Assembly: GCA_030624445.1 (NCBI GenBank)
Contig: JAUXKD010000008.1
Coordinates: 1 to 10,038 of the forward strand
Length of the DNA: 10,038 bases
Source of the DNA: Candidatus Aenigmatarchaeota archaeon
GTDB taxonomy: Archaea > Aenigmatarchaeota > Aenigmatarchaeia > QMZP01 > JAFGSV01
Direction of reading: 5' to 3'
Shown: positions 1,617 through 9,766 of the stretch, piece after piece
Position numbering within the stretch: the stretch's first letter is position 1
Layout: every line of letters begins with the position of its first letter
Program-made: the position numbers and the translations under genes
The notes under the pieces: model-generated
What the model was told of the DNA's origin: nothing
Database searches by the model: none
The model's input: the letters and a program-made list of their open reading frames with translations, nothing else

Positions 1617-2723
1617 TTATCCCGCCAGCATCGTTCCGAACATAATGTTTACAAGGAAACTGGCCCCCAGGTAGACGAGGACCGCTATTATGGAAAGAAT
1701 CGGGGCGAACTTTAGGCCGTCCTTTTCACTTCCTGACCCGATCAGGCCGAGTATGAGACCCCCGAAAAATGTGGTAATGATGATCGCCGCGAGGGAGAAC
1801 TGCAAAAGGAATTCTTCCGATATCGATACGCCCTTCATCTGGAAGAAAGAGACCTTGTCCGAAACGCCGCTTGTCACGGTGGCATCCGGGGTGAGATCGG
1901 ACATCACGCCCGTCATGTAGCCTGAAAGAGCGTAAAGGCCCGGTGCCCCGAGGCAGCCCGCAAAGGCAATGAATATCGCGTACATAAGGGTGTTGGCCTT
2001 GATTTCCTTCTGTATGGCCTGCCTCCGGCGTATGTCCACTGCGTTCTCTTCCAGCAGTGACACTATCTGGCCTCCTCCCCTGATGCCCTCTATTATCAGG
2101 TTTATGCTGCGCTTGAGGTCCTCGGATTTTATAGTGGCGGGTATCTCTCTCATTCCCTCCTCAAGGGACTTTCCAGACATGATTTCCTTCCCTGCCTTTT
2201 TTATGGCTTCCGAAAGGGGACCGAATTCTGTCCTTGCCGAAAGGATGAGCGCCCTGCTCGGTATGTAGCCCGCCCTTATGTTCGCCGAAAGCAGCATCAG
2301 GGCATCCGGCAGTATTTCGTTCACAAACTTCCCTCTCCTGTCAACCGAAAGCAGCAGTATCATGTTGAAGAACGCAAAAGTGATAATGAAAAAGGCGGGA
2401 GACACGTAGAACATGTACTTCCTTATAAGAAAACCCGCAACAATGCCTACAATGATGCTGACGATAAATATACCCTTTATAAATTTTCCCGCATCTCTCT
2501 CTGACCCGGAAAGTTCGAACTGTCTCTGTACCCACCTTTCGTAGAACTTCGGGATGATCTTAATGTGCAGCAGTTTTTTTGTCCTTTTTTTCTTCTCTTT
2601 CCCCTTATGCTTTTCCTCTTTCTTCTCCTTCACATCGTGCTGCTTCCGCTTCGCTTTTTTATCCTTCTCCGGCTTTTTGGCTTTCTTCGGGCCTCTCCTC
2701 CACTTGATAGGAAACAGTTTCAT
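1617..2723 (-). CDS. Type II secretion system F family protein, TadC/FlaJ-like (second of pair)
   Basis: Polytopic membrane protein of 368 residues resembling the F-family platform proteins (GspF/PilC/TadC/FlaJ) on which pilins or archaellins are assembled, driven by a separate GspE-type ATPase. Hydrophobic segments are near residues 82-100, 106-126, 246-268, 306-329 and 339-362. The cytoplasmic helical domain between (about 131-245) holds the family-like stretches LPDALMLLSANIRAGY and IRGGGQIVSLLEENA. Residues 1-52 are unusual: nearly half are lysine or arginine, forming a polybasic cytoplasmic tail. The ATG start overlaps the stop of the upstream F-family gene by 4 bases (ATGA), so the two are translationally coupled. 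TadB/TadC-type pairs usually work together as a heteromeric platform. No ATPase, prepilin peptidase or pilin gene is visible here, so the substrate is unknown. Confidence 0.82.
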   Translation of the reverse strand: MKLFPIKWRRGPKKAKKPEKDKKAKRKQHDVKEKKEEKHKGKEKKKRTKKLLHIKIIPKFYERWVQRQFELSGSERDAGKFIKGIFIVSIIVGIVAGFLIRKYMFYVSPAFFIITFAFFNMILLLSVDRRGKFVNEILPDALMLLSANIRAGYIPSRALILSARTEFGPLSEAIKKAGKEIMSGKSLEEGMREIPATIKSEDLKRSINLIIEGIRGGGQIVSLLEENAVDIRRRQAIQKEIKANTLMYAIFIAFAGCLGAPGLYALSGYMTGVMSDLTPDATVTSGVSDKVSFFQMKGVSISEEFLLQFSLAAIIITTFFGGLILGLIGSGSEKDGLKFAPILSIIAVLVYLGASFLVNIMFGTMLAG

Positions 2724-3607
2724 ATTCCCACCGGCCTCTTGGATTTAATCATGCCAATAAGCATGAACTGGAATAACACAAGGAATCCCAGTATGGCCAA
2801 CAACACGAACTCCACCTGGAAGCTCAACCCGATGAAAGAGCCCAGGACGAGCAGGAAGGTTATGCCGAGCGTGGGCATTATCACACAGAATACCATGTAC
2901 ATCATGGCTATGGGGTTAAGCTGTGCACCGTACTTCTTTATGGCCAGCGTCTGGTCCATGGCGAGATTTTCAACTATCTCTTTCAGCGTGTCGCCGATGT
3001 CCGCCCCGGACTTGAGAGCGTTCGCCACCTGCCACAGCACCCTTCTGAAGTACAGGGACGGATTGTCCTTCGCCATTTCCTCGATGGCCTCTATTTCGGA
3101 TTTTCCGGTGTTTATCTCGTCGACCGACCTTTCGAACTGCTTGCCCAGTTGGCCGTAATCGCCGTGAGCGACAGACACCATGCAATTGAAGAGCGGAACG
3201 CCAGAACGTATCTGTATAAGCAGGTGGTGAAGGGCGTGGGGGAGGTTCTCATCCACGCTCTTTATTTTCTTCTTGGCAAGCAGCTTCGGATACATGACTA
3301 TGTAAAGGAAGGAGGCGCCGGCTATGGTGAAGCCAACCAGCAGTGAAACGCCCACTGACTGAGGGATGATTATTCTTGCCGCCCTGGTTATGACCAACAT
3401 GATGGTGAAAAGCATGGAAAAATAGAATATGGCTGAAAATATGGCGATCGAAACCCATTTCCTTGGTGCCATGTCAATACCGGAATGGTGCAGGTCCCAG
3501 TCCAATGAGGGGAAGAAATTGGACAACATCTCTCCCAGGCCAATGAAAACACTGGAAAACTTCTCGACTTTGTCGAGGGGGAAAGGAACGAGGGGCACTC
3601 TTTTCAT
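2720..3607 (-). CDS. Type II secretion system F family protein, TadB/FlaJ-like (first of pair)
   Basis: Integral membrane protein of 295 residues and the first gene of the two-gene F-family unit. Membrane segments are predicted near 51-74, 83-107, 230-258 and 263-287. The cytoplasmic helical bundle at about 115-225 contains NLPHALHHLLIQIRSGVPLF and a second repeat-like part (WQVANALKSGADIGDTLKEIVENLA), the pattern seen in GspF/TadB/FlaJ proteins. It would form half of an inner-membrane platform for a type IV pilus-like or archaellum-like machine; that role rests on family knowledge. The ATG at 3607 is supported by a TATA-like box 28 bases upstream, so the mRNA may be leaderless. The upstream in-frame ATG at 3625 runs into a stop after two codons. 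The 3' end overlaps the next gene by 4 bases. Confidence 0.82.
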   Translation of the reverse strand: MKRVPLVPFPLDKVEKFSSVFIGLGEMLSNFFPSLDWDLHHSGIDMAPRKWVSIAIFSAIFYFSMLFTIMLVITRAARIIIPQSVGVSLLVGFTIAGASFLYIVMYPKLLAKKKIKSVDENLPHALHHLLIQIRSGVPLFNCMVSVAHGDYGQLGKQFERSVDEINTGKSEIEAIEEMAKDNPSLYFRRVLWQVANALKSGADIGDTLKEIVENLAMDQTLAIKKYGAQLNPIAMMYMVFCVIMPTLGITFLLVLGSFIGLSFQVEFVLLAILGFLVLFQFMLIGMIKSKRPVGI

Positions 3608-4271: not shown

Positions 4272-4302
4272 ATCTCTAAGCTTCCTTATGCGGAGGCTGG
4301 GA

Positions 4303-4346
4303 TTTACGCATTTCCCATGCACGCGGATGCGCGAAAATGGAAACGT
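4303..4346 (-). other. T-loop intron of tRNA-Leu(CAG), about 44 nt
   Basis: The interval interrupts TTCGAA|T of the T-loop. The length of 44 is fixed by assuming a 7-base loop, but the borders can slide by up to 2 bases upward because both ends carry A's (4303-4346, 4304-4347 or 4305-4348). The intron can pair with itself, for example ACG with CGT at its ends, TTTCC with GGAAA, or GCGCAT with ATGCGT. Splicing would be by the archaeal tRNA endonuclease and RtcB ligase. Confidence 0.75.
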
Positions 4347-4401
4347 TTCGAACCCAGGAAGGCACTAAGCCACTAGGCCCTGAACCTAGCCCCTTTGACC
4401 A

Positions 4402-4446
4402 TTCCCTAACCCCTGCATCTATGGAATTCTTCCAGAGCAACGGGTT
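4402..4446 (-). other. D-loop intron of tRNA-Leu(CAG), about 45 nt
   Basis: The 47-base interval 4401-4447 lies between G15 and G18 of the tRNA; a normal D-loop needs about two of these bases, so the intron is about 45 nt with borders uncertain by 1-2 bases. It folds into a stem with AACCC/GGGTT at the base, TGC/GCA above and TGGAA/TTCCA at the tip. Its ends resemble those of the D-loop intron in tRNA-Leu(UAG). Confidence 0.7.
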
Positions 4447-4571
4447 TCTCGGGGACCTCCGCATCGGATGATATAGATATAGCTAATAATTATGCCCCTG
4501 ATTTTTAAAAATGGAGATATTTTTGGGCGACCTGCTGAAGGCAACGAATCCCTTTTGATCGCTGTTTAGTC

Positions 4572-5136: not shown

Positions 5137-5258
5137 TGCGGGGGCAGGGATTCGAACCCTGGAAGGCACTAAGCCACTAGGTCCTAAGCCTAGCCCCTTT
5201 GACCATTACCAAACCCGCCGCTTTACTGCAACACGACGGGTTTCTTGGGAACCCCCGC
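5137..5258 (-). tRNA. tRNA-Leu(UAG) with a D-loop intron
   Basis: The acceptor strands GCGGGGG (5258-5252) and CCCCCGC (5144-5138) pair perfectly; the discriminator A is at 5137 and CCA is not encoded. The anticodon stem CTAGG/CCTAG holds CTTAGGA, with anticodon TAG at 5186-5184 for CUA (and by wobble other CUN) leucine codons. The variable arm is long, as in leucine tRNAs. The T-arm CAGGG-TTCGAAT-CCCTG is intact, so there is no T-loop intron. Between G15 (5244) and the GG at 5204-5203 there are 39 bases, about 37 more than a D-loop needs. Removing them gives 85 nt, the same mature length as the neighbouring tRNA-Leu(CAG). The two genes share nearly identical anticodon-arm, variable-arm and D-arm 3' segments, so they are duplicates. 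Confidence 0.88.
5206..5242 (-). other. D-loop intron of tRNA-Leu(UAG), about 37 nt
   Basis: The insert spans about 5205-5243, borders uncertain by 1-2 bases. It forms a ten-pair stem AAACCCGTCG/CGGCGGGTTT (with one G-T pair) closing a 13-base loop. It starts with the same AAACCCGT and ends with a similar GGGTT-GG-AAT pattern as the intron in tRNA-Leu(CAG), while the loop parts differ completely. This is a typical result of common descent with fast loop drift. Confidence 0.75.
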
Positions 5259-5324: not shown

Positions 5325-7784
5325 TCAGGATTCGTTATTTTCTCCGTTTTCCTCTTCGTTCTGCTCTTCCAGGAGCGAGATGTCCTCGATCATGTCGCCT
5401 TTACTCAGGCGCATAACCCTGACACCCTGGGTTGAACGCCCTATCAGTGACACGCCGTTCGTGGCGATGCGTATGGCCGTGCCCTGGTTGCTGATGAGCA
5501 TGAGCTGCTCTCCCTCTTCGCCTGTAACCTTCGTTATCGCCTTCACGGGGCCGTTCTTTTTCACGACTTTCATGTTTATGATTCCCTTGCCTCCCCTTTT
5601 CTGCACCTTGTAATGGGAGGCCCCGGTCCGCTTGCCGTAGCCTAACTCGGAAACCGTAAGAATCTGCTCGTCGTCCCCGAGTATTTCCATCCCGATGACC
5701 TCGTCTCCGGCCCTCAGCCTTATCCCCCGCACGCCGGAGGCGGATCGGCCCGTCTTCCTGACGTCATTCTCATCGAACTTTATAGCGTACCCTTTCACGG
5801 TTGCCAGGAAGACCTTACTCTTTCCGTCGGTCACATCCACGTCCATGAGCCTGTCGCCGTCCCTGAGGTTTATCGCGATGATCCCGCCCTTCCGAGGCCT
5901 GCTGTACGCCTGCATGGGCGTCTTCTTCACCTGGCCCTTCTTCGTGCAGAACAGCAGGTACCTGTCTTCGCCGAACTCCTTTACCGGTATCGTTGTTGAT
6001 ATTTTCTCATCCTCTTCGAGGTGCAGGTAGTTGACGATCGCCTTTCCCATCGCGTATCTGGAAGCGGTCGGCAGCTGGAACGTCCTCAGCCAGTGTACCC
6101 GCCCCTTGTTAGAGAAGAAAAGAAGGTAGTCATGGCTGTTTGTGATGAACATGTCCTTCACGAACCCGTCCTCGCTCGTTTCCGTAGCCGTTATCCCCTT
6201 TCCCCCCCTTTTCTGCGTCCTGTACTCGTCGACGGGCACCCTTTTCACGTAACCCCTGCTCGTCATCGTGACCACGACGTCTTCCTTGGGGACGAGGTCC
6301 TCCTCGTTCATGTCCGCTTCTTCAGCGGTTATCACGGTCTTTCGTTCGTCCGAGTATTTCTCCTTGATCTCCAGGGTCTCCTCCCGCACTATGGCCATGA
6401 CTTCCTTTTCGGAACTGAGTATCCTCTGATACTTATCGATGTCCTTCAGCAGCTGGTCGTGCTCCTCCTTTATCTTCGCCTGCTCCAGGCCCGTCAGCGT
6501 CTGCAGCCTCATCTGCAGGATCGCGTCCGCCTGCTTTTCAGAGAGCTTGAATTCCGATCGCAGGGTAACCTTTGCGGCGGGAGGGTTCTTGCTCTTCTTT
6601 ATGACCTGTATAACCCTGTTTATCCTCGAAAGGGCGATCCGCAGGCCTTCGAGGATGTGGGCCCGCGCCTTTGCCTTTTTCAGCAGGAATCTCGTCCTGC
6701 GCGTGATTATTTCCTTCCTGTGCCCGATGAAGTGCACGAGAAGCTCCTTCAGAGAGAGCACCCGGGGCTTGTTGTCCACGAGTGCCAGGTTTATGATTCC
6801 GAACGTCGATTCCAATTCCGTATGCTGGTACAGCTTGTTGAGAACCAGTTCGGGGCTCGTTCCCCTCTGCAGCTCGACCACGAGTCTCATTCCTTGCCTG
6901 TCGGACTCGTCCCTGATGGTCCTTATGCCTTCCAGGCGTTTGTCCTTGACGAGCGTCGCCATGTGCTCAATGAGTTTCGATTTGTTGACCATGTAGGGTA
7001 TCTCCTTTATCGCGATTGTGTCGCCGTTCTCTATGTCCGCATGTGCCCTCATCTTGACGATACCCCTCCCGGTCTTATAGGCCTGCAGTATCCCTGATCG
7101 GCCGCATATCATGCCGCCCGTGGGAAAGTCTGGTCCATGCACGGCCGTCATCAGCCTCTCGAGTTCCGTTTTCGGATCATCCACGAGCATCACGACGGCA
7201 TCGCACACCTCTCCGATGTTGTGGGGAGGCATGTTCGTGGACATGCCCACGGCTATGCCGCTGCTGCCGTTTATCAGAAGACCCGGGATTCTTGACGGAA
7301 GGACGACGGGCTCTTCCACGCTCCCGTCGAAGTTCGGCACGAAATCGACCGTGTCCTTGTCTATGTCGACGAGCATCTCCCCCGCAACCTTGGAAAGCCT
7401 AGCCTCGGTGTACCTCATGGCTGCCGCGGAATCGCCGTCGATGGAACCGAAGTTTCCCTGTCCGTTCACCAGGAGGTAACGCAAAGAGAACCACTGCGCC
7501 ATCCTGACCAGGGAGTCGTAAACCGCCTGGTCCCCGTGCGGATGATAAATACCAAGAACGTTACCCACAATACGGGCGCACTTCCTGAATGGCCTGGTGT
7601 ACGAAAGGCCAAGTTCCAGCATAGCGTAAAGGATCCTCCTGTGCACGGGCTTGAGACCGTCCCTGACGTCCGGAAGTGCCCGGCCGATGATCACCGACAT
7701 GGCGTAGTCTATGTAATCATCGCTCATCTCGTCCACTAAGGACCTTTTCGTCACCCCGTCGTCCGTGTTCTTTTTTTCTTCCAT
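5325..7784 (-). CDS. gyrA: DNA gyrase subunit A
   Basis: Breakage-reunion subunit of DNA gyrase, the GyrA2GyrB2 enzyme that introduces negative supercoils using ATP. Residues below count from the GTG at 7793. The winged-helix region ends in [10 protein letters not shown] with the DNA-linking Tyr128. Tower and coiled-coil parts span about 180-490. The C-terminal wrapping domain (about 500-805) carries the GyrA box as QKRGGKG at 527-533, the feature that marks gyrase rather than topoisomerase IV. A second identical QKRGGKG is at 731-737. The chain ends in a short acidic tail ([14 protein letters not shown]). ATG 7784 (residue 4) is preferred over the GTG because AGGTG lies six bases before it, overlapping the gyrB stop. 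The length, 819-822, is normal. Gyrase in archaea is understood to have come from bacteria. The E. coli Ser83 position is Gln89 here. Confidence 0.97.
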
Positions 7785-7793
7785 TATCCGCAC

Positions 7794-9766
<1,973 letters not shown>

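Follow-up and report, generated by a model that had tools for sequence, protein, structure and literature searches.

Introns in the D-loop and T-loop of a tRNA-Leu(CAG) gene from an Aenigmatarchaeota-related archaeon and recurrence of T-loop introns in related genomes

INTRODUCTION

In Thermoproteales, a single tRNA gene can carry several introns, at sites that include position 59/60 and the D-arm, and intron transposition is known (PMC4090602, PMC4390854). The tRNA-Pro(UGG) of Pyrobaculum islandicum, for instance, contains introns at 25/26 and 56/57 along with a third one (PMC4090602, PMC4390854). Across archaea, the reported number of introns per tRNA gene is 0.21; in Thermoproteales, it is 0.84 (PMC8450103). 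Among Asgard archaea, Atabeyarchaeia and Freyarchaeia have introns in 92-95% of their tRNA genes, often at non-canonical positions and with several introns in over half (PMC11291895). Diversified intron positions have also been reported for species with the epsilon-2 type of the splicing endonuclease EndA (PMC12397907), and in Cyanidioschyzon merolae, tRNA-Ile(UAU) has introns in the D-, anticodon and T-arms (PMC9602550). Among the papers listed by searches of the open-licence PMC literature, we found no report of tRNA introns in Aenigmatarchaeota.

Here, we analyze a tRNA-Leu(CAG) gene in a stretch of 10,038 nucleotides (the window) that belongs to a single metagenome bin of 134 contigs, 67% complete. 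Introns of the kind present in this gene are already known elsewhere; here, they recur in many related genomes and hide tRNA genes from standard searches. As in Thermoproteales, there are several bulge-helix-bulge (BHB) introns per tRNA, at canonical and non-canonical sites, with similar introns across isotypes. Unlike Thermoproteales, the organism belongs to another phylum, its T-loop is the commonest intron site outside the anticodon arm (by hand count), and one of the two sites in our gene, 15/16, is absent from the site list of a review, a list that ends in "etc." and includes the other, 59/60. The genome shares the epsilon-2 three-unit EndA architecture with ARMAN-2 (Micrarchaeota), but adds a single-unit EndA paralogue and comes from a DPANN lineage related to Aenigmatarchaeota. 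Intron-rich tRNA genes with non-canonical sites are a feature in common with Atabeyarchaeia and Freyarchaeia, which belong to a different phylum, and the combination of D- and T-arm introns recalls tRNA-Ile(UAU) of C. merolae, a eukaryote with its own splicing endonuclease.

RESULTS

Anatomy of the tRNA-Leu(CAG) gene

The unspliced gene occupies 174 nt on the minus strand (4289..4462), a strand that the original prediction did not give. As that prediction held, the acceptor strands match perfectly (7 of 7 pairs) and lie at the ends of a 174-nt span, from G1 to A73. Exon 1 (4448..4462, minus) corresponds to positions 1-15, that is, the 5' strand of the acceptor stem, positions 8-9, the 5' strand of the D-stem, A14 and G15. 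The D-loop intron that follows, at position 15/16, is 46 nt long (4402..4447, minus) and is supported by its BHB fit and by excision followed by ARAGORN. Exon 2 (4347..4401, minus; 55 nt) contains the remaining D-loop, the anticodon arm with CAG, a long variable arm, the 5' strand of the T-stem and UUCGAA. The 44-nt T-loop intron at position 59/60 (4303..4346, minus) is supported in the same two ways and by its match to R1, a structure model of T-loop introns; the E value of this match is 1.6e-8, for a sequence that was among the 12 from which R1 was built. Exon 3 (4289..4302, minus; 14 nt) supplies U60, the 3' strands of the T-stem and acceptor stem, and A73. The anticodon loop is uninterrupted, so there is no canonical 37/38 intron. 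Once both insertions are removed, the acceptor stem, D-stem, anticodon stem, long variable arm and T-stem all pair, and ARAGORN returns a complete Leu(cag) cloverleaf of 84 nt, that of a regular tRNA. The boundaries originally proposed for the T-loop insertion (4303-4346, 44 nt) were exact; the D-loop insertion was correctly located, but its extent (4402-4446, about 45 nt) and the length of the mature tRNA (85 nt) required correction.

The expectation that searches relying on an intact T-arm would miss the gene proved true for both ARAGORN and Rfam. ARAGORN found no gene in the intact sequence, nor after excision of the D intron alone; excision of the T intron alone led to a Leu(cag) prediction whose 5' end was wrong, and the complete tRNA was reported only when both introns had been removed. 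Neither a window scan with the Rfam tRNA model at E <= 1 nor a whole-genome scan at E <= 10 listed the gene; two of its intronless Leu(CAG) orthologues score 48.7 and 52 bits with this model. When the genome was searched at the DNA level with the gene, the only matches were the gene itself, Leu(TAG) and Leu(TAA); a second intact Leu(CAG), raised in the original prediction as a point against it, was not found by this search in the 67%-complete bin, from which another copy may be missing. In eight ORFs of the window, CTG is the commonest leucine codon (100 of 264).

A second disrupted gene in the window, tRNA-Leu(TAG) (5137..5258, minus; 122 nt, mature 84 nt), has a 38-nt D-loop intron (5206..5243, minus) that the original prediction did not mention. 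This intron agrees with the D intron of Leu(CAG) in position and in its first eight bases; its central helix has three of four pairs, and its BHB pairing was reached by 0 of 20000 shuffles. Both ARAGORN and Rfam misplace the 5' end of Leu(TAG) at 5218. Group I introns were set aside: the three introns of the window are 38-46 nt long, and Rfam at E <= 1 reported nothing in the window except a single tRNA match. The tRNA genes are adjoined by gyrA and gyrB (5325-9722, minus). Along almost its entire length, the window protein at 2720-3607 shares 56-75% identity with proteins of five metagenome-assembled genomes, four of them labeled Candidatus Aenigmatarchaeota and one "archaeon," and matches a sixth locus (Aenigmatarchaeota, CP070804) over 52 residues at 87%.

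BHB motifs at the exon-intron junctions

Folding of the junctions, a check suggested with the original prediction, gave a BHB fit at both introns, with three of four central pairs in each. In the T intron, the T-stem forms the outer helix, UUCG (54-57) pairs with CGUA in the central helix, the bulges are AA/A and AA/U, and the inner helix is CGUUUCC/GGAAAUG. The D intron combines a central helix CCCG (10-13)/AGGG, bulges AG/A and AA/U, and an inner helix AACCC/GGGUU, without a strong outer helix. With one mismatch in four central pairs, each motif is imperfect and not canonical; relaxed BHB forms are known (PMC6379350). In 20000 mononucleotide shuffles per intron, with the BHB register fixed in advance by the exons, the observed pairing was matched at frequencies of 7.5e-4 for the T intron and 1.3e-3 for the D intron. 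Folded to minimum energy, the unspliced RNA shows the T-stem and the inner intron helix, with a 7/7 internal loop in place of the bulges and central helix.

The same analysis was extended to a set of 13 T-loop introns, 11 in Leu and 2 in Ser tRNAs, that come from ten genomes. Eleven of these introns have four central pairs and two have three; the two weakest (150 and 155 nt) had shuffle frequencies of 0.014 and 0.034. Among five D-loop introns tested, two have three central pairs and three have four. In an alignment of 12 T-loop introns at their ends, a layout made to this structure, 87.2% of the cells are paired compared with 71.0% in shuffled sequences, and the covariation score, computed on the same layout, was reached by 0 of 500 shuffles. 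In the central helix, 95.8% of the cells pair, with variation on one side only; in the inner helix, 70.8% pair, and both sides change at all six pairs.

Orthologues in related genomes

We searched 61 genomes, comprising our genome and its relatives, with the Leu(CAG) gene at the DNA level; 46 matched, and a parser was applied to the fetched stretches. Intronless Leu(CAG) genes were identified in G036 and G004 (84 nt, ungapped, with 75/84 and 72/84 identical bases) and in two genomes from a different family of the class, G047 and G059 (86 nt, with two extra D-loop bases). Two further intronless genes of 84 nt, in G015 and G032 (71 identical bases with two aligner gaps, and 69), were dropped as Leu(CAG) orthologues and counted as Leu(GAG) because their anticodon is GAG. 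At the site used in the window gene, a T-loop intron interrupts Leu(CAG) in G001 (35 nt), G002 (64 nt), G005 (63 nt), G021 (37 nt) and G028 (150 nt); G005 has a 65-nt D-loop intron in addition, and in G042 the T intron is absent but the D-loop contains an insertion of 104 nt. The spliced gene of G001 is identical to the window gene at 81 of 84 exon bases, though its 35-nt T intron differs. Insertions at the same two sites as in Leu(CAG) are present in Leu(TAA) of our genome and in relatives.

Introns across the genome and the clade

Reading by hand, we recognized 22 tRNA genes in the genome (the isotypes of about six are tentative), 18 of which contain at least one insertion; the exceptions are Val(CAC), Arg(CCT), Phe(GAA) and His(GTG). 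Of the approximately 24 insertions, about 1.1 per tRNA gene in this hand count, the anticodon arm holds 11, the T-loop 8 and the D-arm 4 (in three Leu genes and Asp), with one more near 7/8. Six of the T-loop insertions were detected by R1 at E <= 1e-4 and two by eye. The one near 7/8 is an apparent insertion in tRNA-Ser(GCT), between the acceptor stem and the D-arm (L012, before 1501; G000:C16, before 2796).

Model R1, run on the 61 genomes, produced matches in 47 at E <= 1 and in 44, our own included, at E <= 1e-3 (hand count). The hits L140, L142 and L143 resemble other repeats and were rejected as tRNAs. ARAGORN was applied to 52 hits, namely 30 reported as loci and 22 that we selected, mostly from our genome and those of its family. 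A correctly ending tRNA was found in 0 of the 52 unspliced sequences versus 40 when exactly the predicted intron was cut out. Cuts displaced by -4 or +4 nt still left calls in 31 and 27 hits; shifts of 6 nt left 3 and 12, shifts of 9 nt 1 and 10, and shifts of 12 nt 0 and 3. This test shows that most R1 hits are tRNA genes and does not fix the exact site; given the tolerance of ARAGORN for shifted excision, the exact splice sites rest on orthologues and the BHB register. Very short T-loop introns, 13-16 nt, were predicted at L116, L150, L135 and L145 (G058, G030 and G004).

Splicing enzymes

The genome encodes a 397-aa EndA of the three-unit epsilon-2 type (L002:871-2061), whose residues 5-397 align end to end with residues 8-387 of ARMAN-2 EndA (4fz2) at 327 bits, a comparison made for this genome only. 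In ARMAN-2 EndA, Y236, H251 and K282 are catalytic and Y160 and K161 belong to the ASL; all five are essential, and alanine mutants of the three catalytic residues are inactive (PMC12397907). Counting residues on the alignment, with the numbering of that paper, we found the equivalents of all five to be identical in the 397-aa protein. The link to ARMAN-type archaea drawn in the original prediction therefore applies to the endonuclease type, but not to the named relatives, which are Aenigmatarchaeota. RtcB is also encoded in the genome (530 bits).

The second EndA is a single-unit paralogue of 190 aa (L001:1228-1797). These short forms retain the Tyr and His, and in 20 of 20 aligned sequences have Ala at the position of Lys156 of Methanocaldococcus jannaschii, where the five solved relatives listed have Lys; in ten further short sequences, read by eye, this residue is Ala in nine and Thr in one (G053). 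Judging from frame lengths alone, short and long forms occur together in 14 of the 61 genomes (G000-G006, G017, G025, G032, G034, G035, G036 and G039) and perhaps in G011. Among four other genomes of the class (G044, G051, G057 and G049), three contain a pair of neighboring EndA-like frames, each about 170-196 aa long, and the fourth contains a frame of 372 aa that gives two matches. From these sequences, several EndA architectures seem to coexist in the class. A strict tie between three-unit EndA and T-loop introns was rejected: T-loop-intron matches at E <= 1e-3 occur in G052, G054 and G058, where only the short EndA was found, and at this threshold are missing from G007, G009, G019 and G023, in which the only EndA frame is about 400 aa or longer.

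Similarity among introns

Among 325 intron pairs compared, those scoring at least 28 were tested against 400 shuffles each, and the 45 pairs listed all exceeded every shuffle, with shared BHB ends contributing to the scores. In G005, Leu(TAA) and Val(CAC) have nearly identical T introns, and within Leu(CAG) the D intron and the T intron are alike; the T intron of Gly(GCC) in our genome resembles the D intron of Leu(TAA) in G003. The similarity of the window Leu(CAG) T intron to the Leu(TAA) T intron is modest (z 7.5). The D introns of Leu(CAG) and Leu(TAG) have common ends, yet this pair is not among the 45. Used as a query, the Val(CAC) T intron of G005 hit G003 at 17 places, G005 at 6 (counting its own location) and G002 at 1; G000, G001 and G004 gave no match.

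A 16-base core, allowing at most one mismatch, occurs 25 times in G003, 13 times in G005 and 4 times in G002, compared with 1, 0 and 0 occurrences of the reversed pattern; elsewhere it occurs 0-4 times per genome, near the reversed control (0-4). The 13 copies in G005, read by eye, consist of 10 in tRNA genes, 2 outside tRNA genes and 1 unrelated sequence. In our genome, there are two core matches: one lies in the T intron of Ser(TGA) and the other apparently in a coding region. A hairpin repeat family in the sister genus g3 (L168-L191, L222-L240) was read as T-loop, D-loop and anticodon introns and as copies at a few non-tRNA places. The possibility that the non-tRNA copies in G003 and G005 lie in RNase P RNA genes was discarded, as Rfam at the gathering score gave nothing in five of the stretches concerned.

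DISCUSSION

The window locus is very probably a tRNA-Leu(CAG) gene that is functional and is split by two archaeal BHB introns, neither of them in the anticodon loop, as originally proposed. This reading is supported by the BHB register, the 84-nt intronless orthologues, the orthologues with a T-loop intron of another length at the same site, and the presence of both EndA and RtcB. After transcription, the 3' end of each intron in the pre-tRNA would pair with exon bases (10-13 of the D-arm and UUCG 54-57 of the T-loop), exposing bulges to be cut by the splicing endonuclease, for which the three-unit epsilon-2 EndA is the likeliest candidate. RtcB would then join the exons. Because the introns fill both elbow loops and the D-stem competes with the BHB of the D intron, the tRNA elbow would form only after splicing.

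It is very improbable that the locus is instead a decayed pseudogene with two chance insertions, with CUG read by another gene or through wobble by Leu(TAG). The adjoining Leu(TAG) could in principle read CUG, and a bin that is 67% complete leaves room for another gene; however, a decayed copy would hardly have all stems paired after splicing, a preserved BHB register, and exons so nearly identical to those of G001 next to T introns unlike in length and sequence, and the same two sites are occupied in Leu(TAA) of this genome and in relatives. For an assembly or binning artefact, one could cite the origin of the data in a single bin of 134 contigs. We give it a negligible chance, considering that a T-loop intron in Leu(CAG) is also present in another assembly (JAFGSV010000004.1, L052) and that both D- and T-loop introns interrupt this gene in G005, whose contig is identical to CP070804 (isolate bin1329) over the 10156 bases compared.

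A further proposal concerns the origin of the introns and is compatible with a functional gene: mobile hairpin repeats would have entered tRNA genes and been kept since EndA removes them, making the introns selfish rather than regulatory. Its probability appears to be somewhat below one half. In the sister genus, an intron family recurs in similar form in several tRNA genes, at several positions, and at a few non-tRNA places, and the near-copies across isotypes and across D- and T-loops in relatives suggest, at the sequence level, intron transposition as described for Thermoproteales. The window introns, by contrast, are only modestly similar to other introns, the family query had no match in our genome, where the core pattern has two, one in the Ser(TGA) T intron and one apparently in a coding region, and core counts outside G002, G003 and G005 do not stand out from the reversed control.

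We assign slightly less than an even chance to a more far-reaching scenario. In Aenigmatarchaeota-related archaea, a hairpin repeat may have become a mobile BHB intron for which UUCG of the T-loop provides half of the splice motif, so that the T-loop of almost any tRNA would be a safe landing site. Colonization would have reached the scale seen in Thermoproteales, with standard tools missing the genes, in a lineage with a three-unit EndA and a conserved Lys-less EndA paralogue, maybe put to other use.

The T-loop hotspot, the repeat-like introns and the second EndA paralogue without the catalytic lysine are the notable points of this system. The tRNA sets of these small-genome archaea may seem incomplete to standard tools despite the genes being present, and such apparent gaps would influence completeness estimates and ideas on host dependence. 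The clade offers a further setting outside Thermoproteales for studying the movement of introns and the reasons for their settling in the elbow loops, and two EndA enzymes in a single genome, one of them without the catalytic lysine, amount to a natural experiment on the evolution of splicing endonucleases.
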